From a virus: DNA of 24,359 nt. The position numbers were made by a program, and so were the translations under genes. Below, in pieces: positions 6,352 to 22,874 of the stretch; within the stretch, counting starts at the first letter, position 1, and the number at the start of each line of letters is the position of its first letter. The notes beneath the pieces are model-generated. The model saw only the letters and a program-made list of their open reading frames with translations. It did not search any database and was not told where the DNA came from. Location: positions 1 through 24,359 of IMG/VR virus record IMGVR_UViG_3300037143_000021; one strand, written 5' to 3'.

Positions 6352-8421
6352 ATGAAGAATAACCGGCTGATGCGCCTCCGAGAGGCGGGGGCCGCCACAG
6401 CATCGCCCGCGCTGATCCGAGGTACCGGCGACGATGACCCGAACATCGGCGCAGCAGGCGCCGGTGGGAGCACCGGAGCCAGCACCGACATCAACGACGA
6501 CGGTTCCCCTGAGATCAAGACCAAGCCGTGCCCCACATGCGGCGGCGCGGGCGTCGACAACGGCGCGCTATGCGCCACCTGCAACGGTAACGGACAAGAT
6601 CAAAGCGGCGAGACCGTGCAAGACATGGGAGAAGCCGCCAGCGACACCAAGACCTGCCCAGTCTGCGGCGGCGACGGTGTAATCGGTAAAAGCCTACCGT
6701 GCAACGCCTGCGACGGCAAAGGCGTAGTGCCCAAGGACTGGCAGCCGAAAGCAGACTCAGGCAACCCATTCGCCAAAGGCAAGGAAGCTGCAGCTGACTT
6801 AAGGGACCTGGGGCCGCTGTCTCGAGTACCGGCTGCATGGCTTGCAGACGGGTCGCTGCGTGAAGCCAGTGTCGCTAAACTGTCAGAGAAGGACTACTCG
6901 ACAGACACCCGCATCCAAGCGGCCAAGGACGGCAATGCCATCCCGATCAAGAACGCCAAAGGTGAAATCACCGGCGGAGCGTTCCCGATCCTGGACGGTG
7001 GCGATGTCGACGATGCAAAAAGCTCGTTCGGTCACAACCCGAGCGCGGTAGTTAAGGCGCACATCGTCAAGCAGGCCAGGAAGTTCGGTAGCGATGACCA
7101 GGTCAAGGCGGCGCAGGCGCTCGATAGTACCAAGGAATCCGCTGCGCTCGAGAGTCGCATCGCAGTGCTCGAAACCCGACTGAGCAAGGATGCAGACCTG
7201 CGCGAATCGAAGCCCGACTTCATGGGTTCGACCTTCGCAGGGATGACCAAGGTCACCAACTCGCAAGGTCAGGAAGGGTACGACGTCGTGCTCATCCGCG
7301 AAGGTAAGGGTAACGACCAGGATGACAACTGGTACACCGCTGCCGCTATCAAAGAGATGTGCGAGTCCGGGCGAGCGGAAGGCATGCAAGCATATGCCAA
7401 CCACCCAGACCTCGAGGAAGAGGAACTGCGTCCCGAGCGTGATGTTCGTCACCTCATCGGCACGCACACCGATGTGAAGTTCGCAGAGGCGGGCGGTAAG
7501 GGGACCGCCAAGTCGATCTTCGTGCCACTGACCACGAACGAGAACCACCCGACCTACGGGTGGGTCACAACTCTGGCCGAGGCAGCAGTTCGCAGTAAGG
7601 GACCGCAGCCACTGGTCGGATGGAGCTTGTACGGGCTGTCCGGTGGCGACACCGGGACCCGGCCGGACGGTACGGAAGGTCGTATCGTAGATTTGATCAT
7701 GCCCACCAGTGGTGACATGGTCACGAACGCAGGAGCGGGCGGCGGTTTTGCCCGCAAACTGATGATGGAGAGCGCACGGCGTCTCCGTCGTGCAAACACC
7801 ACAACACAGGAGGAACCGATGAACATCGGTCAATTCCGCGTGAAGATGACGGAGGCGAACAAGGCTCTCCGGGAGGCAGATACCGATGAGGCGCGTGCGG
7901 ACGCGCTACAGGCCATCGAGACCCTGACGGCTGACGCCGAGAAGATCGACGATACGCCGCAGCCCGCTGCCGGTACCGCAGTGCTAACTGAGGCTGCCAT
8001 CGCGGCGGTCAAGGAAGCGGCGAAGGCCGAAGCTGCTGGTGAGACCGCAGAACTGCAGAAGAAACTGCGCGAGGCCAACACCACGCTCGCCCAGTTCACC
8101 GATGTGATGAGCATCGACGCTGTACTGCGCGAAGCCGAAGTCACGGACGACGACGAGCGTCGGCACTTCATCGCTGTCGCCCGGCAGCGTGGCCTGCGCG
8201 AGGCCGCGGACATCAAGGACATGGTGGAGACCGAGCGTGGTTACCAGGCCAAGCAGGAAGAGAGGATGCTCGCGTCACTGCGCGAGTCGCTCGGGGACAT
8301 CGACTTCCCCGAGGTCGAAGGCGCCGTTACCGCAGGTCGTTCCGCGGCACCGGCGGCAGACGGAGGCGTCGCGCTGCTGCGCGAGGCCGGTATCCCGACC
8401 AAGGAACCGGCCGCTGCGTAG
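6352..8421 (+). CDS. Capsid maturation protease fused to scaffold, with DnaJ-type zinc domain
   Basis: 689 residues from ATG 6352, with GGAGG at 6342-6346. Domains in order: a Gly/Ala-rich start; four Cys-x2-Cys-x-Gly-x-Gly repeats (60-67, 74-81, 102-109, 117-124) as in the DnaJ zinc domain; residues about 150-250 resembling the Ala-x-Pro-Ile, Gly-x-Phe-Pro-Ile, His-Ile-x-Lys-x-Ala-Arg-Lys domain found in phage XkdF-like proteins; a protease domain at about 288-465; and a charged helical scaffold from 490. The protease carries an Asn-His-Pro (His351) and Glu-Arg-Pro-Glu-Arg-type stretch (about 348-370) and a Gly-Trp-Ser-Leu-Tyr-Gly segment (Ser425). His351 and Ser425 are my candidates for catalysis. 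This enzyme class cleaves scaffold and capsid N-termini in the prohead. Leu-Arg-Glu-Ala tetrapeptides recur throughout. The downstream neighbours are the decoration and major capsid genes. Confidence 0.85.
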   Translation: MKNNRLMRLREAGAATASPALIRGTGDDDPNIGAAGAGGSTGASTDINDDGSPEIKTKPCPTCGGAGVDNGALCATCNGNGQDQSGETVQDMGEAASDTKTCPVCGGDGVIGKSLPCNACDGKGVVPKDWQPKADSGNPFAKGKEAAADLRDLGPLSRVPAAWLADGSLREASVAKLSEKDYSTDTRIQAAKDGNAIPIKNAKGEITGGAFPILDGGDVDDAKSSFGHNPSAVVKAHIVKQARKFGSDDQVKAAQALDSTKESAALESRIAVLETRLSKDADLRESKPDFMGSTFAGMTKVTNSQGQEGYDVVLIREGKGNDQDDNWYTAAAIKEMCESGRAEGMQAYANHPDLEEEELRPERDVRHLIGTHTDVKFAEAGGKGTAKSIFVPLTTNENHPTYGWVTTLAEAAVRSKGPQPLVGWSLYGLSGGDTGTRPDGTEGRIVDLIMPTSGDMVTNAGAGGGFARKLMMESARRLRRANTTTQEEPMNIGQFRVKMTEANKALREADTDEARADALQAIETLTADAEKIDDTPQPAAGTAVLTEAAIAAVKEAAKAEAAGETAELQKKLREANTTLAQFTDVMSIDAVLREAEVTDDDERRHFIAVARQRGLREAADIKDMVETERGYQAKQEERMLASLRESLGDIDFPEVEGAVTAGRSAAPAADGGVALLREAGIPTKEPAAA
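7808..7814 (+). promoter_or_regulatory. Internal ribosome-binding site for nested scaffold
   Basis: AGGAGGA inside the protease reading frame, 5 bases before an in-frame ATG at 7819. It is as strong as any start site in the window and lies exactly at the boundary between the protease domain and the scaffold helix region. Confidence 0.7.
7819..8421 (+). CDS. Nested scaffold protein (in-frame internal start)
   Basis: 200 residues translated from an in-frame ATG within the protease gene. The product would be the scaffold alone: almost entirely helical and charged, rich in Ala, Glu, Lys and Arg, with Leu-Arg-Glu-Ala or Leu-Thr-Glu-Ala tetrapeptides at residues 506-509, 545-548, 572-575, 592-595, 615-618 and 676-679 (numbering of the full protein). 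Separate expression of a scaffold from inside a protease gene is known for lambda C/Nu3 and some other phages, and lets many scaffold copies be made per protease. Evidence here is the strong AGGAGG site and its position at the domain boundary. Confidence 0.65.
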   Translation: MNIGQFRVKMTEANKALREADTDEARADALQAIETLTADAEKIDDTPQPAAGTAVLTEAAIAAVKEAAKAEAAGETAELQKKLREANTTLAQFTDVMSIDAVLREAEVTDDDERRHFIAVARQRGLREAADIKDMVETERGYQAKQEERMLASLRESLGDIDFPEVEGAVTAGRSAAPAADGGVALLREAGIPTKEPAAA

Positions 8422-8460
8422 AGCGGCTCATTCCCGAGAAAGAACAGGAGCAGCGCGACC

Positions 8461-9126
8461 ATGAGGTCAAAGCGTAAGAACGCGATCGGCAAGCCCTATA
8501 AGGGCACACTGCCGCTGTACCAGCTAATCGGCCGGTCCGATGAGGACCTCGCCGACCTGTTGGAGCAGGGGTATGACCTGACCATGTCGGGGGCAACCAC
8601 CGCACAGAACCAGGTGGCAGAAAACCCGCTGTATTTCCCGCGGGCGGTGGTCGTCACCACCGATCAGACCATCAACCAGGGTGACTCGGTCTGGTGGGAC
8701 CCGGTCAACTACACGCTCAAGCCGTGCACGACCGCCGCTCAGGTGGCCATCGGCACAACCGGTGGATTCTGCGGCTTTGCTGCAGGTTCCAACGTTCCAG
8801 GCGTGTACCCCAACCCCCCGGCAGGCACCCCATCCGAGAACCTGCCCGGCATCGCCGTGCAGTTCGGCGGCACGGTATTTGCCAACCTGCAGTCCAACGA
8901 TGTTATCGACTACCCGTTCCAGAACGTCACCATGGCCGGAGTCGATGCACAGACGATCACCAAGGGCGGCGCCACTTCAGCCAACCGTGTTGGTGTCGTC
9001 ATCGTCCCACCCCCGACGGTGCCTCGCGGCGCCGCAGGTGCAACCCCCGTACCAGAGTCGGCCGCGGGCGGTACTCGCGTTCGGGTCTGGGTCGAACGCA
9101 AGTACCCGAGCACCACCCTGGTCTAG
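8461..9126 (+). CDS. Probable capsid decoration protein
   Basis: 221 residues from ATG 8461, with AGGAG some 10 bases upstream. The N-terminus is basic and helical (about 1-40). The rest is Gly/Pro/Val/Thr-rich and beta-strand in character, with a Gln-Gly-Asp-Ser-Val-Trp-Trp-Asp motif near residues 73-80 resembling DUF2190-type capsid decoration proteins, a Pro-rich loop about 117-130, and a C-terminal Arg-Val-Arg-Val-Trp-Val-Glu-Arg strand. Its place between scaffold and major capsid genes is where decoration or head-stabilising proteins are usually encoded. Codon use is as G/C-ended as in its neighbours, which fits high expression. A different minor capsid role is possible. Confidence 0.65.
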   Translation: MRSKRKNAIGKPYKGTLPLYQLIGRSDEDLADLLEQGYDLTMSGATTAQNQVAENPLYFPRAVVVTTDQTINQGDSVWWDPVNYTLKPCTTAAQVAIGTTGGFCGFAAGSNVPGVYPNPPAGTPSENLPGIAVQFGGTVFANLQSNDVIDYPFQNVTMAGVDAQTITKGGATSANRVGVVIVPPPTVPRGAAGATPVPESAAGGTRVRVWVERKYPSTTLV

Positions 9127-9154
9127 CAGACCCGGAAGAAAGGAGTACCCAGCC

Positions 9155-10306
9155 ATGCCGGATCTGCGACAGATCCAGAACAAGCGGATCGACAAGATTC
9201 GCGAAGCCACACGCCAGCAGGTGCAGAAGGTAAGTGGCATCGACCCCGAGAGGATCGACTGGAACGATCCCGACCTCTCGGTCAAATCCCTTAGGGAGGC
9301 TTGCTTCAAGGGCCGCCTACGGGAAGCAAGCGCGGAGTCGGCCTTCGGCCAGCTGCTGCGCGCAGGCGTTAACAACTTCATGTTCGACGCCTACCAGACC
9401 GTGCCGACCATCTACCAGGACCTCGTCCGGGTAGCGGCCAGCACGAAGTACGAGGAGCTGTACGCACCGCTGTACAACTCCGAGCTACCGCAGGAAGTGT
9501 TCCCGTCGGAACCGTTCGACGACAGCCGCATCGTCGGTCTGGACGTGCACGTCAGGAACCGTAAGTTCGGCCGCATGCTCGCCTTTGAGCGCGAGCTTGT
9601 CGACGACGATATGACCGGGCAGATCACGCAGCGTGCCGCGAATCTCGGTGAGATGATGCGGTATGTTGAAGAGCTGCAGGTTATGATCGCGATCGACGGT
9701 GCGATCAACCCGCAGACCGGTGGTGCCGGTTACTCCTACTCCGCACTGGGCAACCAGCTGCAGACGCCGGGGCAGCTGTCACAGCCGAACCTCGAGCTGG
9801 CAGACATCCAGCTGCAGAACATGATCGACCCGCTCGGCAACTTCATGCTGGTGACCCCGGACACCGTCCTGGTCTCACCGGCGGACAAGTTCAATCTGTT
9901 GAAGCTGCTTAACAGCACGTTGCAGCCGAGCGTCCCTGGCACCGCGGGCTCCACCACCATTGGCGGTGGCGGTACGGGTGCCAGCTCCGGTCAGACCGGT
10001 TGGACCATGACGATCAACCCGCTCCAGGGCGAGTACAGCGCTAAGGTGTCTCGCTTCATGCGCGGCGCCAACAGCTCGCAGGGCGGCCCCGGGCTCACCG
10101 GTCCGGGTCAGGACGGCTCGCACGGTGCGTGCTACCTGTTGCAGACGCAGAAGTCGATCGTGTTCCAGGATCGAGACGGGCTCGAGGTGCTCCAGGAGGC
10201 TCCGAACTCCGGGACAGCTTTTGCATACGATCAGTACCGCTACCGCGTCCGTAGACGATTCGCGTGCCGGGTCATTGACCCTCGTTTTCTGTGTCAAATT
10301 AACTGA
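9155..10306 (+). CDS. Major capsid protein
   Basis: 383 residues from ATG 9155, with AAGGAG 9 bases upstream; the same frame is open upstream to 8681 but that part only shadows the decoration gene. The N-terminal ~58 residues are charged and helical and contain Ile-Arg-Glu-Ala (15-18) and Leu-Arg-Glu-Ala (46-49 and 55-58), as expected for a cleavable delta-type domain. The body has the features of actinophage HK97-fold capsid proteins: Phe-Gly-Gln-Leu-Leu-Arg-Ala-Gly (64-71), Tyr-Ala-Pro-Leu-Tyr-Asn-Ser-Glu-Leu-Pro, Arg-Lys-Phe-Gly-Arg-Met-Leu-Ala-Phe-Glu-Arg-Glu-Leu-Val-Asp-Asp-Asp and a C-terminal Val-Ile-Asp-Pro-Arg-Phe strand. A Gly-rich loop at about 265-280 may be an insertion. It follows the protease-scaffold and decoration genes and has strongly G/C-ended codons. 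Confidence 0.88.
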   Translation: MPDLRQIQNKRIDKIREATRQQVQKVSGIDPERIDWNDPDLSVKSLREACFKGRLREASAESAFGQLLRAGVNNFMFDAYQTVPTIYQDLVRVAASTKYEELYAPLYNSELPQEVFPSEPFDDSRIVGLDVHVRNRKFGRMLAFERELVDDDMTGQITQRAANLGEMMRYVEELQVMIAIDGAINPQTGGAGYSYSALGNQLQTPGQLSQPNLELADIQLQNMIDPLGNFMLVTPDTVLVSPADKFNLLKLLNSTLQPSVPGTAGSTTIGGGGTGASSGQTGWTMTINPLQGEYSAKVSRFMRGANSSQGGPGLTGPGQDGSHGACYLLQTQKSIVFQDRDGLEVLQEAPNSGTAFAYDQYRYRVRRRFACRVIDPRFLCQIN

Positions 10307-10316
10307 GGGTCGGTTA

Positions 10317-10346
10317 TTGACGATCCACGGTTAGCCTGCCTATGCT
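10317..10346 (+). promoter_or_regulatory. Promoter upstream of the 457-aa gene
   Basis: A -35 TTGACG (10317-10322) and a -10 TATGCT (10341-10346) are 18 bases apart, in the gap after the major capsid gene. The expected start, near 10353, falls inside the left arm of the inverted repeat at 10345-10372, so messages from this promoter would lack the complete hairpin. Confidence 0.5.
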
Positions 10347-10372
10347 CCCTCAGGTGTAAAAACCTGAGGGAG
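10345..10372 (+). terminator. 11-bp perfect inverted repeat with 6-base loop (terminator or translation-control hairpin)
   Basis: Bases 10345-10355 and 10362-10372 are exact reverse complements, with loop GTAAAA. No U tract follows, so it is not a classical E. coli-type terminator, though actinobacterial terminators often lack one. The right arm ends in GGGAG (10368-10372), the ribosome-binding site of the ATG at 10378, so in read-through messages from the capsid gene that site would be paired and hidden. Confidence 0.6.
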
Positions 10373-10377
10373 TAAGC

Positions 10378-11751
10378 ATGAAGATACCAACTAGCGAAAG
10401 GAACGGTGAGCTGATGGGGTCATACATAAACGCAGACGGCAGCAGCGTACAGTTCACCGACGATGAACTGCAACGTCAAGCTACAGTACTATACAGCATC
10501 CTCAAAGAGGAAGCGCCATCCGGGTCCAGTAACATGGAGAATGATGTAGTCCGTCAGCTGCTTACCGACCTGTGGCAGAACAAACCTTTGAATAACGCCC
10601 AGCATGGCGCGCTCGCACAGCTGCTGCGCAAGTATGCTCCGCAGATTGCCGCAGCGCAGAAAAGCGAAGACTATGATGGGCAGGATTATTTGCACACCCC
10701 GCCTGAGGGGCAGGGGCGAGTGACCCCGGCACCGGTAGCTCTTAAAGAGGCCGAGGGTAAACAGCCGAGTTTGGCGCCGCAAGACGTGGTCCGTAGCCCG
10801 CCGCATCTGCTTGACACGGTGTTGCATGATCTTGCGCATGCTGCGCAACATGGTAAACAGCTAGCTGACGCGGAAGTGCAGAACGATCCGCAGTCGCTAC
10901 AGTTCAACCAAGAGCATATGATCAAGCATTTACAGGGCGCTCAGTCGCACGCGCAGAAGCTTGACGCGCATCTGTCCAAGTTCAAGTCAGATCCGAAGGT
11001 GTGGGCTGTGGAGCGCGATGCGCTTAACGGTCAGCGCGCGACCCCGGCTATCGACGCGCCGACGTCCGACAGTAAGCCGATTAAAGAGGCGGCTGTTGAC
11101 GCGAGGCCGCCGCATCTGCGTCAGTCAATGGACCCTACGGTTCAGTGTCACACCTGTTCGATGTTCGATAGTGTGAACTCGCGGTGTACCGCTTACAAGC
11201 TTGCGACCGGTGAGAACTATCCGGTTGATGATGAGATGGTGTGTGATGTGTATCAACATCGCATGAAGGAAGCAGACACCCCTAGGGAAGACAGCGGGAA
11301 GTTCCGTAAAGACAGCCGCGTATTCGACCCGCTCTTGCTTCACGCTGATCCGCTCCACGCCGCAGAAGCGGCTAGGCAACTGGGTGAGACAGGACGGGTG
11401 CGGGTTCTGGGTCACGATCCGGCAGCTAAAGATGCGGCTGATATTGTTGCAGCTAAGGTTGCGGGTAATCCGGAGCAGTCACAACTAACAATCCAAGGCA
11501 ATCCCTACACTCAGCTCAAGGTAGTAGAGTCCGCATTTATGGGAATGATTCCGTCGGAGCGGCGGCGTATGCGCGAGGATCAAGCACGCGACCCTAACGA
11601 GGAGTTTGCAGGCGGCTCCGGCGATAAGCCTAATGTGAGCGCAGGGTCAGCTCCTGGAGGCGGGTTCACCAAAGATGAGCTGATCAAGAACTACGTGACT
11701 ATGCACGGTCAGCAGCCATCAGCGGCGCAGATAGCGAAGCTGTCTAAATGA
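10378..11751 (+). CDS. 457-aa Cys4 head-region protein
   Basis: 457 residues from ATG 10378 (GGGAG 5 bases upstream); an in-frame ATG at 10414 with AAGGA upstream is an alternative. The sequence is polar and helical with long linkers. Residues 257-289 hold a Cys-x2-Cys-x9-Cys-x18-Cys cluster with Tyr-Pro-Val-Asp-Asp-Glu-Met-Val-Cys, resembling small metal or iron-sulfur binding modules in other phage proteins; the metal is unproven. Leu-Lys-Glu-Ala (122-125), Ile-Lys-Glu-Ala (235-238) and Met-Lys-Glu-Ala (296-299) are variants of the tetrapeptide seen in scaffold and capsid, so this protein may be processed inside the prohead. The region around 320-390 (Arg-Val-Arg-Val-Leu-Gly-His-Asp) may be a small alpha/beta domain. 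It lies directly after the major capsid gene, and its stop overlaps the next start as ATGA. Function unknown. Confidence 0.65.
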   Translation: MKIPTSERNGELMGSYINADGSSVQFTDDELQRQATVLYSILKEEAPSGSSNMENDVVRQLLTDLWQNKPLNNAQHGALAQLLRKYAPQIAAAQKSEDYDGQDYLHTPPEGQGRVTPAPVALKEAEGKQPSLAPQDVVRSPPHLLDTVLHDLAHAAQHGKQLADAEVQNDPQSLQFNQEHMIKHLQGAQSHAQKLDAHLSKFKSDPKVWAVERDALNGQRATPAIDAPTSDSKPIKEAAVDARPPHLRQSMDPTVQCHTCSMFDSVNSRCTAYKLATGENYPVDDEMVCDVYQHRMKEADTPREDSGKFRKDSRVFDPLLLHADPLHAAEAARQLGETGRVRVLGHDPAAKDAADIVAAKVAGNPEQSQLTIQGNPYTQLKVVESAFMGMIPSERRRMREDQARDPNEEFAGGSGDKPNVSAGSAPGGGFTKDELIKNYVTMHGQQPSAAQIAKLSK

Positions 11752-12808: not shown

Positions 12809-15406
12809 ATGTCTATGATTACGGCTAGCGCCGCTGGCGGTAACTGGTCTTCTACTGCTGCGTGGACAGGCGGTGTAGTACCTGGTGCGGGTGACGATGT
12901 TTTGTTAACTGTTACCAGTGGCAACATCACCATAGATACGTCTGCTGCTGCTTGTAACAGTCTAAACTGTACGGGCTACACCGGTACGCTTACTCATGTA
13001 GCAGGGATTACGTTCAATATTGGATCCGCGGCTGCTGGTTTGTCAAGCGATGCGTTAGTGTTGGTAGCAGGGATGACGTATACGTTGGGGAATGCCACGA
13101 CGTCGGCGCTCAACTTTATATCGACATCGGCGACGCAGCTGAATGTCACGTCTGGTGGTAATGCGCTGGGCAATGTTACGTTCAATGGTGCTGGTGGTTC
13201 ATGGATATTAACCGATGGGTTTTCGACTAATGCTGCGGCTACAGTCACCCTGACCGCAGGCACGCTCAACACCAACAGCCAGGCGTGTTCGTGGGGTCTG
13301 TTTTCCAGTTCAAATTCTAACACGCGAGTGCTAACGATGGGCACAAGCGCTATTACCCTCACTGGTACCGGTACCACGTGGAATATAGCTATTGCCACCG
13401 GTCTCACTCTCTCAGCAGCATCCAGCACAATTAACGTAACAGGCGCTACAGCTTCTTTCTCGCACGCCAATTCGGCTGGGTCGGCCGGAAGTTTCGGTAC
13501 TCTTAATCTGACCGGCTCGGGAGTCTGTCAGTACCTCGGGCAGTCAGCGACAGGAAACAGCTTCGTCAACTTCAACAGGACCGGGACCGCAGTTAAGACA
13601 GACTCGCTGAGTATTGTCGAGAAGTTTGCGGTCACGGGGACCCTGACGCTCGCGGGTAACAGTGTCACAAACAGGCTCCTGGTCCAATCGTCGGTCACAG
13701 GCACGGCACTGACCATCACCGCTGCTGCGGTATCGCTCACGGATGTTGATTTTCAGGACATCACCGGAGCGGGTGCAGCTTCTTGGGCCGGAACCAGTAT
13801 CGGTGATTGCGGTGGCAACTCCAATATCACAGTGACTGCCGCGCTGAACTTGTATGGAGTCAATACGAGCGCCAACTCGAACTGGAGCACGGCACTGTGG
13901 GCTACCTCCTCTGGCGGATCGTCTGGCGCACGAGTGCCATTGCCGCAGGATGCTGTATATCTCGATGGTAACTCTGGTACGCATCAGTACGCGATCGATA
14001 TGCCGCGTCTCTGCGCAAACCTGATCTGCCTCGGGTTCACTGGGGCGCTGTACGCGTCGGCGACCAACTTCACGATGTACGGCAGCTTAACGCTTGTTGC
14101 GGGAATGACCTATACCAACAATGTATCAATGACCCTAAGCGGTCGCGGCAGCGGCAACACGATCACCAGCGCTGGTCATACCCACGCCAGCATCGGGATG
14201 GGAGGCGTCGGAGGAACCTACACATTGCAGGACAACCTTACGGTGACCCAGACATTCACAATCTCCTACATCTTCAATGCTAATGGCATGAACGTGTCGG
14301 CGGGGGAAGTGCAGTTCTTCGGTGGTGCGGCTACTACTGTCAACATGGGTTCAGGAACATGGACTTGTACCGGCACTACAACCATATGGAACTACAGCTC
14401 GGGCATTATTAATCCGCAGACCTCGACAATTGTGCTTGCCGGAAGCGGGGCCGCGATTACATTCGCAGGCGGCACGGAAACATATGGCAACATCACCATT
14501 CAAGGATTGGCGGGAGGCTCCGTCACCTTCACCGGGAACAGCACCTTCGGAACCTTCACTTGCACGCAAAAGAAGACGCTGATCTTTCCTGCATCGACAA
14601 CCCTGACGGCTGCACAATGGGTACTGCAGGGCTCTAGTGGAAATTTAGTCACACTTCAATCGTCATCTTCGGGGACCACCGCGAGCATTAAGCAAACATC
14701 CGGCTACGTATTCGCACAATTCGTATCTCTGAAGGATTCGACCGCCACGGGTGGCGCTGCATTTGGGTACGACTCCAACAGTACTGTCGTGTCGAATGTA
14801 GCTGGGTGGGCTCTTATGGATCTCGAGACCGGTACTGGGTCGTTCTCATTTTCAGGTAGCGGTACAGAAACACTGTCTCAATCTGGAGCTGGAACATATT
14901 CTTTCAGCGGTAATAGCACCATATCGCTAGTTAGCGCTGGCGGCGGAGCATACTCGTTTACCGGAACAGCATCAGAAGCCCTTACGGTAGCGGGTGGCGG
15001 GCTATATTCCTATAGCGGATCCGGTGCGGGTGTTATCAAAATCGCTGGGACCGGGGTAGGCCACTATTCGTTTACTGGTACGGCTACCGACAGTCTTGCC
15101 AGTAGCGGGGTAGGATCGTACAGTTTTGTAGGTCATAGCGCAGAGTCATTGGTTGCTAGCGGAAACGGATCATACCGGTTTACTGGGACAGCCACTGGGG
15201 CTGTAACCGCAGTGATAGTGGCTACACCTATCACCACCGGCCATACGCGAGCGCAATCGCAAAGTGGATCAGCTACAATGTCTACAACCGCTACCGGTAA
15301 TGCAAGTAGCGGACGCACCGGCGTATCCAAAGTGCCTGCGGCTGTTACCGGTAGCGCAGGCAGTGGACGCACTGGTATACCTAAAGTACTTGGACCTAAC
15401 TGGTAA
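12809..15406 (+). CDS. Large beta-helix adhesin / fibre-like protein
   Basis: 865 residues from ATG 12809 (a second ATG lies at 12815; no clear ribosome-binding site, so coupling to the preceding gene is likely). Residues about 10-80 read Gly-Asn-Trp-Ser-Ser-Thr-Ala-Ala-Trp, Val-Pro-Gly-Ala-Gly-Asp-Asp-Val and Leu-Asn-Cys-Thr-Gly-Tyr-Thr-Gly, a G8/right-handed beta-helix type opening that recurs at about residues 350-420. The rest is Ser/Thr/Gly-rich with short regular strands, as in solenoids. Residues 675-802 hold seven 18-residue repeats, and the end has two about 17-residue Gly-Arg-Thr-Gly repeats. No catalytic triad or signal peptide is seen. It is the best receptor-binding candidate, and its high Ser/Thr content makes it a plausible acceptor for the glycan enzymes downstream. 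Codon use changes along the gene, which suggests modular exchange. Confidence 0.75.
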   Translation: MSMITASAAGGNWSSTAAWTGGVVPGAGDDVLLTVTSGNITIDTSAAACNSLNCTGYTGTLTHVAGITFNIGSAAAGLSSDALVLVAGMTYTLGNATTSALNFISTSATQLNVTSGGNALGNVTFNGAGGSWILTDGFSTNAAATVTLTAGTLNTNSQACSWGLFSSSNSNTRVLTMGTSAITLTGTGTTWNIAIATGLTLSAASSTINVTGATASFSHANSAGSAGSFGTLNLTGSGVCQYLGQSATGNSFVNFNRTGTAVKTDSLSIVEKFAVTGTLTLAGNSVTNRLLVQSSVTGTALTITAAAVSLTDVDFQDITGAGAASWAGTSIGDCGGNSNITVTAALNLYGVNTSANSNWSTALWATSSGGSSGARVPLPQDAVYLDGNSGTHQYAIDMPRLCANLICLGFTGALYASATNFTMYGSLTLVAGMTYTNNVSMTLSGRGSGNTITSAGHTHASIGMGGVGGTYTLQDNLTVTQTFTISYIFNANGMNVSAGEVQFFGGAATTVNMGSGTWTCTGTTTIWNYSSGIINPQTSTIVLAGSGAAITFAGGTETYGNITIQGLAGGSVTFTGNSTFGTFTCTQKKTLIFPASTTLTAAQWVLQGSSGNLVTLQSSSSGTTASIKQTSGYVFAQFVSLKDSTATGGAAFGYDSNSTVVSNVAGWALMDLETGTGSFSFSGSGTETLSQSGAGTYSFSGNSTISLVSAGGGAYSFTGTASEALTVAGGGLYSYSGSGAGVIKIAGTGVGHYSFTGTATDSLASSGVGSYSFVGHSAESLVASGNGSYRFTGTATGAVTAVIVATPITTGHTRAQSQSGSATMSTTATGNASSGRTGVSKVPAAVTGSAGSGRTGIPKVLGPNW
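14831..15214 (+). repeat. Seven tandem 18-residue coding repeats
   Basis: Within the adhesin, seven units share the pattern Gly-x-Gly-x-Tyr-Ser-Phe-x-Gly with Leu six residues on. Six are 18 residues and the fourth is 20. The first begins at residue 675. The DNA copies have diverged in synonymous positions, so the repeat is held at protein level. The pattern fits a beta-solenoid coil or a repeated surface hairpin. Confidence 0.75.
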
Positions 15407-16465: not shown

Positions 16466-16795
16466 ATGGTAGACGCAGACGCCCAAGAAGTGATCGAAGG
16501 TCTGGTACAGCGCTGCGCGCTGGCTAATCAGGCGTTTAATCGCATCAACACAGTAGCCAAAGAGCACGGGCTGATCTATAGCCCCGAAGAGCTGACGTCG
16601 ATCAACATCGTGTGTGATCAGCTGCTCGAAGTGCTGGTTGCCTCGGGGCTGATCGATAAGGTACAGTTCATGCAGGACGTACTGGCTAGACAAGCCGAGT
16701 CGCTGGAAGAGCAACTAGCTAATGCCGCCGCCGATTTCCGTGAGCGCACTGGGCTGATGGTGCCGCTCGGTGTAAGCGGCAGGCCGCAAGGATGA
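16466..16795 (+). CDS. Hypothetical helical protein, first gene of glycan module
   Basis: 109 residues from ATG 16466 with AAGGGGA a few bases upstream. A GTG at 16445 is in frame but lies ahead of the predicted transcription start. The protein is almost all helix: Val-Ile-Glu-Gly-Leu-Val-Gln-Arg, Ile-Val-Cys-Asp-Gln-Leu-Leu-Glu-Val-Leu-Val, and a charged C-terminal Leu-Glu-Glu-Gln-Leu-Ala-Asn-Ala-Ala helix, ending Gly-Arg-Pro-Gln-Gly. No family is recognised and there is no helix-turn-helix. It overlaps the first glycosyltransferase by ATGA. Confidence 0.65.
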   Translation: MVDADAQEVIEGLVQRCALANQAFNRINTVAKEHGLIYSPEELTSINIVCDQLLEVLVASGLIDKVQFMQDVLARQAESLEEQLANAAADFRERTGLMVPLGVSGRPQG

Positions 16796-17571
16796 AACTT
16801 TGCGTGGGCGCCCCTGTAGGCGACGATCGCGAATGGGTGTTTGATGCTTGGCTGGACGCGCTCAGGGCTCAGACGGTACAGCCAGATTACATACGCCTGG
16901 TCACAGGGCAAGCCATACCTGGCTGGGTAGTCCATGAGCTGGAAGATCAGGGGGTGGAGTACGATTGCGCCCCGTCTGAGCTTCCGTGTTACACGCGTAA
17001 TCAGCGCACTGCAGATCCTACCGACCCGAACCGCACTAACCACTTTTGTGCGCTGCGTAATCAGCTGCGTGGTCTGATGCTCGAGACTGATGCTGACGTG
17101 TTTTTGAGCTTGGACACCGATATTTTGTTGACTAACCCTGATACGATCGAGTTGCTGCTCGACGCGCTATTTAGGTACCATTACAGCGTAGCTGCACCGA
17201 TGGTTTACCTTCACCCTCTAGGCGAAGAGGGCGGGTGTTATAACGCGGCATGGTGGTGCACCAGCGAGCTGGGCGACCCGAAGCGGGCGTGGCAGCGTAT
17301 AAGCACCGACGATATTCGTGAGCATCGCGAAACACTCGGGTCGATGTTTAACATTGACGAAGCACTCGGGCCGATGACTATTGACATACCGATGGCTGCG
17401 GTCGCAATGCGCCGAAGCGTGCTCGAGGCATGTACGTACACCCCGCATGAACAGGGTGAAGATATCGGGTTTGCTGACCAGCTGTCTGCTAACAATTTCT
17501 CTATCGGTTGGTGCTACAACCTAGAGACCTGGCATGTTTGGGGCGCCGAGTATTTGGAGGAAGCCGTATGA
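16792..17571 (+). CDS. GT-A (GT2-like) glycosyltransferase
   Basis: 259 residues. An N-terminal Leu-Cys-Val-Gly-Ala-Pro strand starts the nucleotide-sugar domain. Ser-Leu-Asp-Thr-Asp (106-110) is the metal and nucleotide binding D-x-D, preceded by a hydrophobic strand. The acceptor side has Glu-Asp (223-224) in Gln-Gly-Glu-Asp-Ile-Gly-Phe-Ala, a likely catalytic base, and His248 in Trp-His-Val-Trp, the usual third metal ligand. There is no membrane helix, so it is cytosolic. The donor sugar cannot be read from the sequence; the adjacent GDP-sugar gene suggests a GDP donor (inference). Start and stop are ATGA overlaps with neighbours. Confidence 0.8.
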   Translation: MKLCVGAPVGDDREWVFDAWLDALRAQTVQPDYIRLVTGQAIPGWVVHELEDQGVEYDCAPSELPCYTRNQRTADPTDPNRTNHFCALRNQLRGLMLETDADVFLSLDTDILLTNPDTIELLLDALFRYHYSVAAPMVYLHPLGEEGGCYNAAWWCTSELGDPKRAWQRISTDDIREHRETLGSMFNIDEALGPMTIDIPMAAVAMRRSVLEACTYTPHEQGEDIGFADQLSANNFSIGWCYNLETWHVWGAEYLEEAV

Positions 17572-18764
17572 ACTGCCGCGGCTGTGGGCAAGAATTAGAT
17601 CCAGCCAATGTCGTGTGTGATCTCGGTATGCAGCCGCTAGCTAACGAGTTGGTTACTGACCTCGATCATGCTGAGATCCGTTACCCGACACGCCCGCTGG
17701 TGTGCTCAGTATGTTTGCTAATGCAACTCCCCGCGGTAGACGGAGTGTTCCACGCTGATTACCCATTCTACGCGGGCCAAAGCCAAGCGTGGCGTAGGCA
17801 CTGTACTCACTTTGTGGAGACCCTGCTTGATCGTGGACTTAGTGAATCTAACCGAGTGCTTGAAATCGGATCTAACGACGGCACCTTAACCAGCGCCTTT
17901 CTGCAGCACGGGATGCAACGTACCATGGGCGTGGAACCCTGTGCGGAAGTAGCTCAGAGCGCGCTACGTGAAGGTTTGGCTGTCGATATTCAGTTCTGGA
18001 CGGAGGATTACGCTGAACGGCTGGTTGATCGGGGATACTCAGCTGACCTGGTTGTAGCTACCAACGTACTCGCGCACGTACCTGATCTGCAAGACTTTTT
18101 GCGAGCCATAAAGACCGTACTCGAGCCGGACGGCGAGATCGTGTTCGAAGTACCGCACGTAGCTAAGCTCATACAGGATGGGCGATTCGATCAAATCTAT
18201 GCTGAGCATCACTGTTACTTCAGTATGCGTTCCCTATGGATCGCACTGTTGGGAGTAGGTCTGGATATCGGTGACGTCCAGGAAGTGCCCACACACGGCG
18301 GCTCCCTGCGGATATACGCCGGGCACATGGACCATTGGCAGCCCAGCGAACGGGTCAGCGCCATGACCAAGGCCGAAGACGCACAGGGATTGTACGATAT
18401 GAGCACCTATTTATCGTTCTATCCTCGACCCGCAGCCGTGAAAACTGCGCTGTTGCGTGAGCTAACCTCTAGTGATTGCGTTACCTGGGGGTATGGCGCC
18501 AGCGCCAAAGCCGTGACGCTTATGAATTACTGCGGAATCGACCCTTCAATGATCACTGCGATAGCAGACACCACACCCGCTAAACAGGGCAAGTTTGCAC
18601 CTGGCTGCCGAATCCCTATTGTTTCCTCCGTCGATATGGCAGCGGCACAGCCTGAGCGTATAGTCAACTTTCTATGGAACTGGGCCGAAGAATCTGAGCG
18701 AAACATACGAAAGGCTTGCCCTGAAGCCCTCATCATCAACCCGTTCGACTGCCTACCTGCATGA
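17568..18764 (+). CDS. NDP-sugar C-methyltransferase (NovU/TylC3/TcaB9-type)
   Basis: 398 residues from ATG 17568, with GGAGG upstream. All three family domains are present. The N-terminal zinc domain has Cys3-x2-Cys6 and Cys46-x2-Cys49 and a Leu-Gly-Met-Gln-Pro-Leu-Ala-Asn motif. The SAM domain has Leu-Glu-Ile-Gly-Ser-Asn-Asp-Gly (98-105). The C-terminal domain has Trp-Gly-Tyr-Gly-Ala-Ser-Ala-Lys (307-314). The active-site Tyr-x-Glu-His, known in TcaB9, is conserved as Tyr211, Glu213, His214, and His-Gly-Gly-Ser-Leu-Arg follows at 243-248. Known members C-methylate C3 of an NDP-4-keto-deoxysugar, usually dTDP-linked. The next gene makes GDP-4-keto-6-deoxymannose, so a GDP-linked substrate is likely (inference). 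Length matches the family (about 400). It overlaps both neighbours by ATGA. Confidence 0.9.
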   Translation: MNCRGCGQELDPANVVCDLGMQPLANELVTDLDHAEIRYPTRPLVCSVCLLMQLPAVDGVFHADYPFYAGQSQAWRRHCTHFVETLLDRGLSESNRVLEIGSNDGTLTSAFLQHGMQRTMGVEPCAEVAQSALREGLAVDIQFWTEDYAERLVDRGYSADLVVATNVLAHVPDLQDFLRAIKTVLEPDGEIVFEVPHVAKLIQDGRFDQIYAEHHCYFSMRSLWIALLGVGLDIGDVQEVPTHGGSLRIYAGHMDHWQPSERVSAMTKAEDAQGLYDMSTYLSFYPRPAAVKTALLRELTSSDCVTWGYGASAKAVTLMNYCGIDPSMITAIADTTPAKQGKFAPGCRIPIVSSVDMAAAQPERIVNFLWNWAEESERNIRKACPEALIINPFDCLPA

Positions 18765-19753
18765 GTAAACGTGCTCTCATTACAGGTTTGACGGGGCAAG
18801 ACGGGAGCCATCTAGCAGATCTGTTGCTTGAGAAAGGTTACGAAGTACACGGTATTGTGCGCCGCAGTTCACACGTAGCTGACGGCCGCATCGCTCATAT
18901 CCGTGGTCAACTGCAATTGCATGAAGCTGATCTGACCGATCAAGAGTCGCTGAATCGTGTGATGCACCGTGTGCGTCCAGACGAAGTATACAACCTAGCT
19001 GCGATGAGCTTCGTGGGCGCCAGCTGGAACCAACCCATACTAACATCTGAAGTCACTGGACTTGGCGCGTTACGGATGCTCGAGGCAGTTCGTAGCTGTA
19101 CTCCTGACGCGCGGTTTTACCAAGCATCGTCGTCTGAGATGTACGGATCTGCTCCGGCGCCTCAGGACGAAAACACTCCGTTTCATCCTCGCTCGCCTTA
19201 CGGGGTGGCGAAAGCATTTGCGCATCATATGACCGTTAACTATCGCGAAAGTTACGGTATGCACGCCAGCTGCGGTATTCTGTTCAATCATGAGGGTGAA
19301 CGTCGCGGCGAGGAGTTCGTCACCCGCAAGATAACTAAGTGTGTAGCTGAACTGGTAGCTGGTAAGCGTAGCACGTTCACGCTCGGGAATTTAGACGCTC
19401 GCCGTGATTGGGGGTATGCCCCAGACTATGTGAACGCGATGTGGCTCATGCTGCAGCAAGAAACTCCCGATGATTACGTTATCGCCACTGGGGAAACATG
19501 GTCGGTGGCCGACTTTGTTGACGCGGCCTTGCAAGCCGCGGGTATTAGCAATTCACGTGAAGAGTTAGTGACGATCAATCCAGCGTTTGTTCGTCCGGCT
19601 GAAGTCAACGAGTTGTGCGGGGTTCGACGCAAAGCTTGGGTTAAGCTTGGATGGGCACCTACTGTATCATTCATGGAATTGGTAGGTCGCATGGTACAGG
19701 CTGATTTAGAGGCGCTGGGTGTTGACCCACTCCCTGGTATGGCGACGGTCTGA
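18761..19753 (+). CDS. gmd: GDP-mannose 4,6-dehydratase
   Basis: 330 residues. An extended short-chain dehydrogenase with Gly-Leu-Thr-Gly-Gln-Asp-Gly (9-15) for NADP, Asn-Leu-Ala-Ala at 78-81, a Ser-Ser-Ser-Glu-Met-Tyr-Gly active-site strand (123-129), and Tyr147-x3-Lys151. Phe-Asn-His-Glu (175-178), Arg-Arg-Gly-Glu (181-184), Phe-Val-Thr-Arg-Lys-Ile and Gly-Asn-Leu-Asp-Ala-Arg-Arg-Asp-Trp-Gly (209-218) are specific to GDP-mannose 4,6-dehydratase rather than dTDP-glucose dehydratase. The enzyme converts GDP-D-mannose to GDP-4-keto-6-deoxy-D-mannose in the cytosol. The usual Ser-Pro after Asn-His-Glu is Gly-Glu here, a small deviation. No GDP-fucose synthase or GDP-rhamnose reductase is in the window. 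It overlaps the C-methyltransferase by ATGA. Confidence 0.92.
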   Translation: MSKRALITGLTGQDGSHLADLLLEKGYEVHGIVRRSSHVADGRIAHIRGQLQLHEADLTDQESLNRVMHRVRPDEVYNLAAMSFVGASWNQPILTSEVTGLGALRMLEAVRSCTPDARFYQASSSEMYGSAPAPQDENTPFHPRSPYGVAKAFAHHMTVNYRESYGMHASCGILFNHEGERRGEEFVTRKITKCVAELVAGKRSTFTLGNLDARRDWGYAPDYVNAMWLMLQQETPDDYVIATGETWSVADFVDAALQAAGISNSREELVTINPAFVRPAEVNELCGVRRKAWVKLGWAPTVSFMELVGRMVQADLEALGVDPLPGMATV

Positions 19754-20892
19754 TGTATCGTGAACCTTTTAGTGTAGTGACTCCTACCGCGTCAGCTGAC
19801 GGTTACGGTGTCAGCGGCGAAAGCCTGATCCTAGCCGCTAAACGTAGTCACGATGCCGAGATCTCGGTGATCGGCTATGATTGGGCTGACGAGCGTTACA
19901 CCGACCCTGAGCTGCTAGCGATGAAGTGTGATCCCTATTTGGCAGATGCGCATGATCTGTTGGTAGTGTATTTTCTACCGTTCGCACTGACACGGTTCTC
20001 GTCGCGCTGCACGGTGAATATGACGATGTGGGAGACCGATCGGTTGCCGGACCAGTGGGCACGACTGCTTAAGCTTGCTGACGGTGTAGTTGTCCCGTCT
20101 GAGCATTGCAAAGTAGTGTTTCAGCAGCGGGTGGATTGTCCGGTCGAGGCGGTACCGTTCGGCACCGATACCGATCTGTACAGTTACATTAATCGTCGCG
20201 GCGATCTTACTCGCAATCGCTCGCTGCATCCGTATTACTTCGGGCCAGAAGTTCGGAATCCGCATGAGTTCGTGTTCCTTATGAGTGGAGCGTTACACTA
20301 CCGTAAAGGTGTGGACTTCGCTCTCCGCGCGTTGCGTGAGGAATTCACCGGCGGCGAGCCTGTGCGATTAGTACTCAAGACCCGTCGCGGATTCTTTGAT
20401 TTTGTTGGGGAGGCTGCGATGCTGTCAGACGCGCGGGTAACTGTGATAGACGAAGATTACACGCGCGAGCAGATGCGCGACCTGTATCATATGGCTGATT
20501 GCTTCCTCGCCCCTTCCCGTGGCGAGGGCTCCGGGCTCACCCCGCGCGACGCTATGTCCACCGGCTTACCTACCATCGCCACCGAATGGGGCGGGTTAAA
20601 AGAATTGACGGACTCCGGTTGTGTGATGACCCTCCGAGTAGAAGACCTGGAGGAAGCGCCGCAGGAGAATACTTCGTACGGTGTGGGTGTCACTGGTGGC
20701 GGTGATATCGGCAACTTTGCTCGGCCTGATGTGGCTCATCTGCGCACGCTGATGCGGGAGGCTTATGAAGACCGCGAGTCGGGCTATAGCTTGGGTTACG
20801 ATGGGGCGCAGCTTATGCGCTCGGAGTATACGTGGCGCGATTGTGCCGGTAAGTGGCTTAACGCGCTCGAACTACTGAAAGCGGCGGCTTAA
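19753..20892 (+). CDS. GT4-family glycosyltransferase
   Basis: 379 residues, start sharing one base with the preceding stop. It has a GT-B fold. The N-terminal domain has a Gly-Tyr-Gly-Val-Ser-Gly-Glu acceptor loop (17-23) and a Met-Trp-Glu-Thr-Asp-Arg-Leu-Pro motif (92-99) common in GT4 enzymes. The C-terminal domain opens with Tyr-Arg-Lys-Gly (183-186) and carries Pro-Ser-Arg-Gly-Glu-Gly-Ser-Gly-Leu-Thr-Pro, the E-x7-E site, but with Asp266 in place of the second Glu. A Gly/Thr-rich loop near residue 310 is unusual. GT4 enzymes are retaining; GDP-linked sugars are common donors. No membrane helix is seen. Confidence 0.85.
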   Translation: MYREPFSVVTPTASADGYGVSGESLILAAKRSHDAEISVIGYDWADERYTDPELLAMKCDPYLADAHDLLVVYFLPFALTRFSSRCTVNMTMWETDRLPDQWARLLKLADGVVVPSEHCKVVFQQRVDCPVEAVPFGTDTDLYSYINRRGDLTRNRSLHPYYFGPEVRNPHEFVFLMSGALHYRKGVDFALRALREEFTGGEPVRLVLKTRRGFFDFVGEAAMLSDARVTVIDEDYTREQMRDLYHMADCFLAPSRGEGSGLTPRDAMSTGLPTIATEWGGLKELTDSGCVMTLRVEDLEEAPQENTSYGVGVTGGGDIGNFARPDVAHLRTLMREAYEDRESGYSLGYDGAQLMRSEYTWRDCAGKWLNALELLKAAA

Positions 20893-20915
20893 TCTTGCAA
20901 CCTACGATTACAGGG

Positions 20916-20925
20916 AAGGAGGTGA
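20916..20925 (+). promoter_or_regulatory. Near-perfect Shine-Dalgarno sequence
   Basis: AAGGAGGTGA is fully complementary to the 3' end of 16S rRNA and lies 6 bases before the ATG at 20932. It is far stronger than the coupled starts of the surrounding glycan genes and suggests that the following small protein is made in larger amounts. Confidence 0.7.
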
Positions 20926-20931
20926 ACAGTC

Positions 20932-21228
20932 ATGACAGACGAAGCTCATGCTCACACGAATCCGGCAACTGGCGCGGCCAGCAAAGACGTCGGACGCGCG
21001 GTAATCTTTACCGACACGCACGGGGTGAAGCACAACGCGCTAGTGACGGCGGTATGGGGCGAACTCGGAGTCCACAGCATCAACCTGTTGTTTGTGGAAG
21101 ACGATCCGGCCAAGACCGACCAATACGGTCGTCAGATCAACCGTCAAAACACAAGCGTGGTGCACAAGAGCGGGCAGTCGGCACACGGTATGTACTACGA
21201 AGTGATCGACGCAGCCTTTACGAGCTAA
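20932..21228 (+). CDS. Small conserved phage protein
   Basis: 98 residues. The pattern Ile-Phe-Thr-Asp-x-His-Gly, Ala-Leu-Val-Thr-Ala-Val-Trp-Gly, Ile-Asn-Leu-Leu-Phe-Val, Asp-Gln-Tyr-Gly-Arg-Gln, Thr-Ser-Val-Val-His and Ala-His-Gly-Met-Tyr-Tyr belongs to a family I recognise from many actinophages and other tailed phages, of unknown function. The first 20 residues are polar and His-rich. It has its own very strong ribosome-binding site and sits alone between two glycosyltransferases, so it marks the glycan region as phage rather than host DNA. It may be a virion component and possibly an acceptor for the glycan (inference). Confidence 0.75.
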   Translation: MTDEAHAHTNPATGAASKDVGRAVIFTDTHGVKHNALVTAVWGELGVHSINLLFVEDDPAKTDQYGRQINRQNTSVVHKSGQSAHGMYYEVIDAAFTS

Positions 21229-21282
21229 CGCTGTCTCTGGTGCCGAGTAGGTGCCTAATCAAGAGGCTGTTCACACGTTGAA

Positions 21283-22692
21283 ATGGACGTCTGGGTTTTA
21301 ATGATAGTGGGCCAGTTCGAAGAACCGTTCCTCGAGGCGGCATTACGATCAGTCGAGTGGGCTGACGGTTTCGCTATCGTCAACACCGATCCTGAAGGTA
21401 AGAACGGTCAACAGAACGAGCGGATTGTACGCAACATCGTACCTCGAGAGAAGCTCAAGCTTGAGCGACTGTGGATGAGCCCCGGCAAGTTCGACTTCGC
21501 TAAGGCGCGCAATACCGCGCTCGGGCTGATTCCGGATGATGCTGCTGTGCTCATTGTCGACGCCGATGACGTGCACTACCCGCATTTCCAGGGGCTGGTG
21601 CGCAATGCGATCGCGCAGGGTGACACCACGCTGGCTGCACATTACTGGCATCATGCCGTCTACAAAAACCTGTGGCACTCGATACCGCACCGGAGGATTG
21701 TGTTCCCGCGGCACGGCGCGGGATTCAGCAATTCACAGGGCACCGTGCATGAAGAGTTGCGAGGTCGTGTAATCGAGCCGGTGTTTTTGGATTATCGCTA
21801 CCATCACTACGGCTATATCAAGCCTGCGCGTGAGGTAAGCAAGCGCTGGGAGTTTTACCGTAGCCTAGGTGCCCCGATTCACGACTACGACCGTGATCAA
21901 CCAGACCACGCGCTCGACGATTGGCCGCGGATCTGTAAGCTGTACACCGGCGAGCACCCGCCAGCGGTAGAGCCTGCGCTGAACGGGCTTGGCGACCAAA
22001 GCATCTGGCCAGTGGCGACGCCCGACGTTTTTCCGCATGACACGCACCCGGCACGCGTCGGATTAGTGCTGCTAACTTGGAACGACGAAGATAACCTCCG
22101 AGGCTGCCTACAGTCACTCGATTTTACTCGCGAGCCATTCGGCCTGCTTACTGTCGACAACGGATCTAATGACGACAGCCCTAGCATGGTAGTACGATAC
22201 GGCGACCTGTTGGAGCGACCTGACCGGTCGCTCACAGAGGCGCTGAACATTGGGTTCAAGGATCAAATGGACGCCGGTTACGAGTACATCGGCTGGATTC
22301 ACCCAGACCACGTGTTCGAGTATCCAGATTGGTTGACCGAACTGGTAGCTGCGCTGGACACTCACCCGGAATGGGCGAAGGTTGGTTGCCAAGAGGTCGT
22401 AGACGCTGGATCTGGATTGCGAGCAGGTAATACTCAGTGCTTTATCGTCCGGCGATCTGCGCTCGAGCAGATCGGTTTGTTTGACGAAGGCTATCTTGCC
22501 TGCGGTGGCTACGAAGATTGGGATATGAACCGGCGGCTGATCAACGGCCCAGGATCGGTTATGATCTGGCCAAATGCGGTGGTCCGACATAACGCGATGA
22601 GCACCCGTAAGCGGCACGACAACGAAGAGGCGGCACGGCGTAACGCTGGGTACTATCAGGAGAAGTGGGGCGACACGGAGCCCCCTTGCTGA
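21283..22692 (+). CDS. Tandem two-domain GT2-type glycosyltransferase
   Basis: 469 residues with two GT-A modules. Domain 1 (1-about 235) has an N-terminal Val-Leu-Met-Ile-Val strand, Lys-Ala-Arg-Asn (74-77) and Ile-Val-Asp-Ala-Asp-Asp (91-96), a standard D-x-D. Domain 2 (about 258-469) opens with Gly-Leu-Val-Leu-Leu-Thr-Trp-Asn, has Val-Asp-Asn-Gly-Ser-Asn-Asp (291-297), a Trp-Ile-His-Pro-Asp-His segment (338-343) where D-x-D is expected, and Gly-Tyr-Glu-Asp-Trp-Asp (409-414) for the catalytic base. Tandem GT2 proteins usually add two sugars in turn. The degenerate D-x-D in domain 2 may mean altered metal use. The ATG at 21283 has only an AAGAGG some 18 bases upstream. The stop overlaps the next ATG as TGATG. 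Confidence 0.85.
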   Translation: MDVWVLMIVGQFEEPFLEAALRSVEWADGFAIVNTDPEGKNGQQNERIVRNIVPREKLKLERLWMSPGKFDFAKARNTALGLIPDDAAVLIVDADDVHYPHFQGLVRNAIAQGDTTLAAHYWHHAVYKNLWHSIPHRRIVFPRHGAGFSNSQGTVHEELRGRVIEPVFLDYRYHHYGYIKPAREVSKRWEFYRSLGAPIHDYDRDQPDHALDDWPRICKLYTGEHPPAVEPALNGLGDQSIWPVATPDVFPHDTHPARVGLVLLTWNDEDNLRGCLQSLDFTREPFGLLTVDNGSNDDSPSMVVRYGDLLERPDRSLTEALNIGFKDQMDAGYEYIGWIHPDHVFEYPDWLTELVAALDTHPEWAKVGCQEVVDAGSGLRAGNTQCFIVRRSALEQIGLFDEGYLACGGYEDWDMNRRLINGPGSVMIWPNAVVRHNAMSTRKRHDNEEAARRNAGYYQEKWGDTEPPC

Positions 22693-22874
22693 TGGCTCGT
22701 ATAATGCCTGAGACTATAACTGTCAAATTGAAGCTCGGCGATGTCCTCGCGGTTGAGCGCTTGTTGGATTTTGTCGCAGAGGTTACGCATCATGCTATAG
22801 CGACTGGGGACAAAGTGCTGCTAGCTAAATGTCAGAAGGTGGGCGAAGATATGGTGGGCGTAACATGCGAGTAG
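22692..22874 (+). CDS. 60-aa hypothetical protein
   Basis: 60 residues from ATG 22692, overlapping the preceding stop (TGATG); a longer in-frame start at 22665 lies inside the previous gene and is less likely. The sequence contains Ile-Thr-Val-Lys-Leu-Lys-Leu-Gly, a helix Asp-Val-Leu-Ala-Val-Glu-Arg-Leu-Leu-Asp-Phe-Val, and two histidines. It overlaps the next gene by 10 bases. No family is recognised; it is one of three small genes scattered among the glycan genes. Confidence 0.55.
   Translation: MARIMPETITVKLKLGDVLAVERLLDFVAEVTHHAIATGDKVLLAKCQKVGEDMVGVTCE

Follow-up and report, generated by a model that had tools for sequence, protein, structure and literature searches.

Hydrophobic-x-Glu-Ala/Ser motifs as a putative cleavage code for head maturation in the viral record IMGVR_UViG_3300037143_000021

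What does a short tetrapeptide signify when it recurs across the head proteins of a virus? This question is raised by a 24,359-nucleotide stretch of viral DNA (IMG/VR record IMGVR_UViG_3300037143_000021, hereafter the window), in which the C-terminus of a portal gene (3-338, the only part of the portal within the window) is followed by genes for a MuF-like protein (1024), a protease-scaffold protein (6352-8421), a small protein (8461), and a major capsid protein (MCP; 9155-10306). The protease gene thus lies between the portal and MCP genes, as it does in cultured phages. The protease-scaffold gene, the MCP gene, the gene for a 457-residue protein further downstream, and all sites described within them are on the plus strand. 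A prediction made earlier from the sequence alone, the original prediction, held that [L/I]-x-E-A tetrapeptides in these proteins form a maturation cleavage code of the kind used by the prohead protease of phage T4. Our analysis makes it very likely that the motif, redefined as hydrophobic-x-Glu↓Ala/Ser (arrow, proposed scissile bond), is what the phage's own prohead maturation protease recognizes.

Each listed tetrapeptide was confirmed at its residue. Counted from the ATG at 6352, the protease-scaffold protein carries LREA at residues 9, 169, 506, 572, 592, 615, and 676, LAEA at 408, and LTEA at 545, while IREA15, LREA46, and LREA55 occur in the MCP, LKEA122, IKEA235, and MKEA296 in the 457-residue protein, and VREA65 in the MuF-like protein. 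We also found sites that had not been listed, namely, LRE↓S (E285 and E645), MME↓S (E473), MTE↓A (E501), VKE↓A (E555), MGE↓A (E94), and FAE↓A (E379), and the protease-scaffold protein holds 10 phi-[RK]-E-[AS] motifs (phi, hydrophobic residue). The claim that this density exceeds chance was upheld by shuffling the residues of each protein, which gave counts far below those observed: 0.02 LREA expected against 7 observed in the protease-scaffold protein, and 0.03 [LIVM][RK]EA expected against 3 observed in the MCP. Most non-head proteins of the window had motif counts close to expectation. The synonymous codons differ from site to site (CTC CGA GAG GCG, CTG CGT GAA GCC, CTT AGG GAG GCT, CTA CGG GAA GCA, and others), and selection therefore acts at the protein level; an origin of the motif as a DNA repeat was ruled out by the same differences. 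A search of Rfam found no RNA element.

By means of viral contigs, the capsid and protease alignments were enlarged, first from 5 members to 10 and later to about 50. In the parts of 52 protease-scaffold proteins outside the protease core, phi-x-E-[AS] was found 412 times against 90.8 expected (4.5-fold), phi-R-E-[AS] 143 times against 5.1 expected (28-fold), and LREA was enriched 38-fold; these pooled counts draw on related sequences, such that z-scores overstate independence and the permuted controls carry the argument. The regions concerned are rich in Ala and Glu, and runs of this kind favour helix, which could suggest that L-x-E-A arises by chance from the helical or coiled-coil composition of scaffold and leader. 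We consider this extremely improbable, since permuted orders of the same residues (phi-E-x-[AS], phi-x-[AS]-E, [AS]-E-x-phi, and E-phi-x-[AS]) and substitutions of D, K, Q, or R for E all occurred at or below expectation (0.58-0.91x), and since the motif is invariant at a single capsid column, described below. Controls with shifted spacing gave 1.11x (phi-xx-E-[AS]) and 1.26x (phi-E-[AS]). Over the window and seven related contigs, the density of phi-[RK]-E-[AS] per 1000 residues was 16.8 in protease-scaffold proteins, 7.75 in MCPs, 3.64 in portals, and 0.58 in other proteins, a 29-fold difference between the first and the last. The motif is thus rare in non-head proteins, whose motif frequency had been set beforehand as the refuting check. 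As a positive control, the published L/I-X-E rule of the T4 prohead protease, for which cutting is proven (PMC9026906), was applied to T4 itself: [LI]xE occurred 16 times in the scaffold protein gp22 (5.7 expected) and 7 times in gp21 (2.55 expected), and gp23 has LTE65↓A. We also looked for covariation at P2 between capsid and scaffold sites and saw none; capsids with MQE pair with K-rich scaffold sites.

The central predicted cut lies in the MCP precursor (383 residues, 42.3 kDa), which scores above the cut-offs of two Pfam families of HK97-fold capsid proteins, Phage_capsid_4 (41.5 bits against 27) and Mu-like_gpT (35.4 bits against 20.1), and which matches, by profile, a Mu gpT-domain capsid protein in the PDB (E=1.8e-12). 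The original prediction had placed a cut after Glu57, just before the conserved body begins. Among 46 aligned MCPs, including those of cultured phages and an archaeal virus and reaching down to 16-38% identity, the only invariant columns are those of Glu57 and Glu147. At the capsid site (9317-9328), P1 is Glu in 46/46 sequences, P3 is hydrophobic in 45/46, and P1' is Ala in 41, Ser in 3, Gly in 1, and Thr in 1, with P2 varying widely (R, Q, K, G, Y, H, A, N, T, M, L). Glu57 immediately precedes the conserved body, the leader ahead of it is 40-122 residues long and barely alignable, and, in the closest relatives, the E48 and E57 sites are set apart by a gap that varies in length. The match of an NCBIfam protease/capsid fusion model to the window MCP begins at residue 58, and in six cultured MCPs an STSDF-type body start comes right after phi-x-E↓[AS]. 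These comparisons support the proposed cut, which would leave a mature MCP of A58-N383 (35.5 kDa). The putative propeptide, M1-E57 (9155-9325), is a delta-like leader with internal sites at E17 and E48; leaders of the 46 MCPs hold 76 extra phi-x-E-[AS] motifs against 11.2 expected, with at least one in 45/46, and the capsid bodies hold 56 against 35 expected. An AlphaFold2 model of the MCP built from a 10-sequence alignment had a predicted local distance difference test (pLDDT) score of 34 and was not used.

A protease that could make such cuts is predicted within the protease-scaffold precursor (6352-8421; 689 residues, 72.3 kDa), which combines a conserved core (residues ~286-473) with a scaffold domain. 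The phrog_15531 profile ("head maturation protease") matched 49/49 aligned cores, including that of the window (E=3.5e-6), and the search of Pfam gave no peptidase family match. His351 (7402-7404), Ser425 (7624-7626), and Asp455 (7714-7716), each kept in 98% of the 52 relatives, are the putative catalytic residues. The AlphaFold2 model of the core had a pLDDT of 86 overall and ~96 over most of its length, and its best match in BFVD was the "Capsid maturation protease" of Arthrobacter phage Rings (E=3.7e-10); among the top viral matches are proteins of Arthrobacter and Clavibacter phages named as capsid maturation proteases, with a probability of 1.00 and a TM-score of only ~0.5. By profile, conserved residues, fold, and gene order, the protein belongs with the phrog_15531 and actinophage capsid maturation proteases. 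Between its N-terminal site and the core lies a DnaJ-type CXXCXGXG zinc-finger region (6529-6723), which matched Pfam PF00684 slightly under the curated cut-off (E=4.6e-7, 30.4 bits, cut-off 32.7) and DnaJ 1exk in the PDB by profile (E=2.3e-8). Relatives vary in their number of finger pairs, with fewer in L011-L014.

The distribution of sites along this precursor points to release of the core at both ends. A phi-x-E-[ASG] motif brackets the core on either side in ~90% of relatives, outside the confidently folded part. At the N-terminal boundary, E285 (LRE↓S, 7198-7209; Glu in 90% of 52 relatives) lies in a low-confidence segment (pLDDT ~50) that precedes the folded core, and at the C-terminal boundary, E473 (MME↓S, 7762-7773; Glu in 88%) is kept in 9/9 close relatives. 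Cuts at both would free a 20.2-kDa protease, S286-E473 (7207-7770). Upstream, candidate sites are found near the N-terminus at E11 (LRE↓A, 6376-6387; 8/9 aligned relatives) and at E171 (LRE↓A, 6856-6867; 3/9). The scaffold domain carries E501 (MTE↓A, 7846-7857), E508 (LRE↓A, 7867-7878), and E547 (LTE↓A, 7984-7995), each in 8/9 relatives; E555 (VKE↓A, 8008-8019), E574 (LRE↓A, 8065-8076), E594 (LRE↓A, 8125-8136), and E645 (LRE↓S, 8278-8289), each in 7/9; E617 (LRE↓A, 8194-8205) in 2/9; and, toward the C-terminus, E678 (LRE↓A, 8377-8388) in 4/9, the closest relatives ending in a LRE[AS]-G-[ILV]-P tail. Two further motifs, LAEA408 and FAEA377, are probably uncut because they sit inside the predicted folded core, and LAEA408 was accordingly dropped from the sites of the original prediction.

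Conservation of this kind could also reflect a different function, in which LREA is a docking motif that binds scaffold, capsid leader, or protease during assembly and is not cut. Many scaffold sites do hold their alignment positions in 7-8/9 relatives, the motif density exceeds what a single release cut would need, and there is a strong preference at P2 for Arg (5.6x), a residue that T4-type proteases can do without. Against docking, the motif falls exactly at domain boundaries (the start of the capsid body and both ends of the core), and the fixed P1 Glu and small P1' residue, combined with a variable P2 in capsids, are as expected for a Glu-specific protease. Moreover, the T4 scaffold is likewise enriched in sites, and there cutting is proven (PMC9026906). 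We therefore regard docking without cleavage as improbable, and cleavage by the phage's own protease as the better account of the motif.

The scaffold may in addition be made as a separate protein. A Shine-Dalgarno sequence (AGGAGG, 7808-7813) lies 5 nucleotides upstream of an in-frame ATG at 7819, just past the core, from which a nested scaffold gene (7819-8421; start M490, 200 residues, 21.3 kDa) could be translated. Shine-Dalgarno matches of at least 6 nucleotides precede 27/140 start codons located at most 60 residues after the core, compared with 24/1011 elsewhere in the same proteins, and matches of at least 5 are present in the post-core region of 39/52 relatives. This enrichment makes a nested free scaffold likely. 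Nested protease-scaffold genes are known from lambda (C/Nu3) and Mu (I/Z), in which an in-frame internal start yields free scaffold.

The analysis shows the positions of the motif, its enrichment and conservation, the gene order, and the pattern of domains and catalytic residues; from these we infer a pathway, including cleavage itself, the order of cuts, the exit of fragments, and the choice of scaffold sites used, whose wider outline is modelled on T4 and giant-phage work (PMC9026906, PMC10052503). Full-length protease-scaffold, nested free scaffold, and capsid precursor would co-assemble into a prohead, with the 57-residue capsid leader pointing into its interior. Once activated, the Ser/His core would cut after Glu at [L/M/I/F/V]-x-E↓[A/S], this clade having a preference for Arg at P2. 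It would release itself at E285↓S286 and E473↓S474, shred the scaffold at about nine sites, and remove the capsid leader through redundant cuts at E17 and E48 and a final one at E57↓A58. The fragments would then exit, and DNA would be packaged.

Several observations weigh against this pathway. We found no mass-spectrometric or N-terminal data for any family member, and the main text of the Blf4 paper reported no virion mass spectrometry. An hhalign comparison of the core with a single T4 gp21 sequence was not significant (probability 1.7%), nor was that of the window MCP with T4 gp23, and a fold search of the core against the PDB gave no significant solved structure (best E 0.039); this best match, to MCE transport proteins, was rejected as an unrelated chance hit. 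The overstated independence of the pooled counts counts here as well. Furthermore, phi-x-E-[AS] motifs within the folded core (LAEA408, FAEA377) or the capsid body (LQEA346) owe their conservation to other causes, and the presence of a motif alone is therefore no proof of cutting. Nevertheless, the comparative tests were passed and the permuted controls were unenriched, and a T4-like code remains the reading that we favour. The predicted specificity resembles that of T4 gp21 as far as sequences can tell; membership in the gp21 family is not supported, and homology was undetectable.

Whether the code extends to other head proteins of the window is less clear. In the 457-residue protein (10378-11751), three [LIVM][RK]EA motifs, all of the phi-K-E-A type, exceed the shuffled expectation (p=4e-5), and they follow a conserved N-terminal domain of ~115 residues, the first of them being loosely comparable in position with LREA117 of the G002 homologue. 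In a wider version of the cleavage hypothesis, this protein and the MuF-like protein would be internal head proteins and substrates too. However, the whole site-bearing extension is missing from the homologues in contigs G005, G007, and G008, and phi-[RK]-E-[AS] is absent from the MuF-like homologues. The excess of motifs in the 457-residue protein thus stands, its role as a substrate is uncertain, and VREA65 of the MuF-like protein was discarded as a cut site; we consider the wider version rather unlikely. The portals of relatives, on the other hand, carry [MLI][RK]E(A/S)-WG or close variants at ~105-118, ahead of the conserved body, as expected if a portal leader is also removed, and the portal of SPN3US is reported to be cut (PMC10052503, PMC9026906).

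Side observations were also made. Portals of G001-G006, L011 (1795-3945), and L013 (841-3006) have candidate sites at ~80 and ~110, to which some add one near the C-terminus (MREA at ~680), and processing at both ends is possible in these relatives. The G002 MuF-like protein (L015:2-1744) contains an insertion of ~350 residues (~176-529) with a weak, sub-threshold Pfam match to intein splicing (E=0.0015), and this insertion is possibly an intein. In the window itself, the small protein (8461) matched a phage cement protein family below the threshold, an 865-residue protein (12809-15406) has C-terminal YSF(S/T)G-type repeats and no Pfam or PHROG match, and the structural genes are followed by genes of sugar-modification type (16792-24357), including a C-methyltransferase (17508) and a member of the GDP-mannose 4,6-dehydratase family (18761).

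How far does the code reach? Searches of cultured phages by tblastn with full-length P0001 and P0002 gave no match, and a scan of genome contigs found no capsid relatives, leaving neither a host nor a prophage assignment. Using the protease core of a divergent relative as the query reached cultured viruses, namely, the Arthrobacter phages Rings and Kukla, Streptomyces phage Satis, Curtobacterium phage Yappy, Brevibacterium phage LuckyBarnes, Microcystis phage Mae-JY22, and the archaeal virus Blf4. A profile of the core finds the proteases of cultured actinophages at E values of 1e-20 to 1e-28, and proteases of the cultured phages hold 9-17 sites against 2-4 expected. A sequence search for cultured actinophage capsids of this type found no solved structure, and a published description of the specificity of phrog_15531 or of the actinophage family was not found, with most subscription journals lying outside the coverage. 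We think it more likely than not that one code, hydrophobic-x-Glu↓Ala/Ser, operates across a very broad protease family spanning uncultured phages, actinophages, a cyanobacterial phage, and an archaeal virus, together with self-excision at both ends, an invariant capsid anchor, removal of a portal leader, and a nested scaffold start. As a separate observation, a 771-residue "hypothetical" frame of Mae-JY22 (L109:5644-7959) joins a protease core to a long C-terminal part that by its position resembles a capsid, with no further capsid gene downstream; phi-x-E-[ASG] occurs 17 times in the frame against 4 expected.

Tailed phages carry prohead proteases as hallmark genes, yet few of these have known cut sites. 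If the code holds, sequence would reveal, for a large and mostly uncultured family, the cut sites, where the mature capsid begins, and the extent of the self-excised protease and of the free scaffold, and capsid annotation would gain mature N-termini. The T4-type rule of cutting after Glu would also come to cover proteases whose sequences show no detectable similarity to T4 gp21.

Among the closest known systems, those of the Arthrobacter phages Rings and Amigo, Satis, and Yappy share with the window a homologous protease core (profile E 1e-21 to 1e-28), the order portal-protease-small protein-capsid, and the same type of site before the capsid body; their proteases are shorter (300-361 residues), and that of Rings lacks the zinc-finger region. 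The proteases gp245 of the Salmonella giant phage SPN3US and gp175 of phiKZ likewise have Glu at P1 and multiple redundant propeptide sites, but P3 is Ala in SPN3US and Ser/Ala in phiKZ, in contrast with the large hydrophobic residue of the window (PMC10052503, PMC9026906). T4 gp21 also cuts after Glu, at L/I-X-E (PMC9026906), and works on a scaffold dense in sites. As in the window, the serine protease gene of T4 (Straboviridae) adjoins scaffold and capsid genes (gp21/gp22/gp23), and the capsid leader is ~60 residues in both (65 in T4, 57 in the window). The window differs from T4 in joining protease and scaffold in one polypeptide with a probable nested scaffold start, and in favouring Ala or Ser at P1' and Arg at P2. 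The protease of lambda, C, is of another fold. The window MCP matches Mu gpT models, and the probable nested scaffold start would be a feature shared with lambda C/Nu3 and Mu I/Z.

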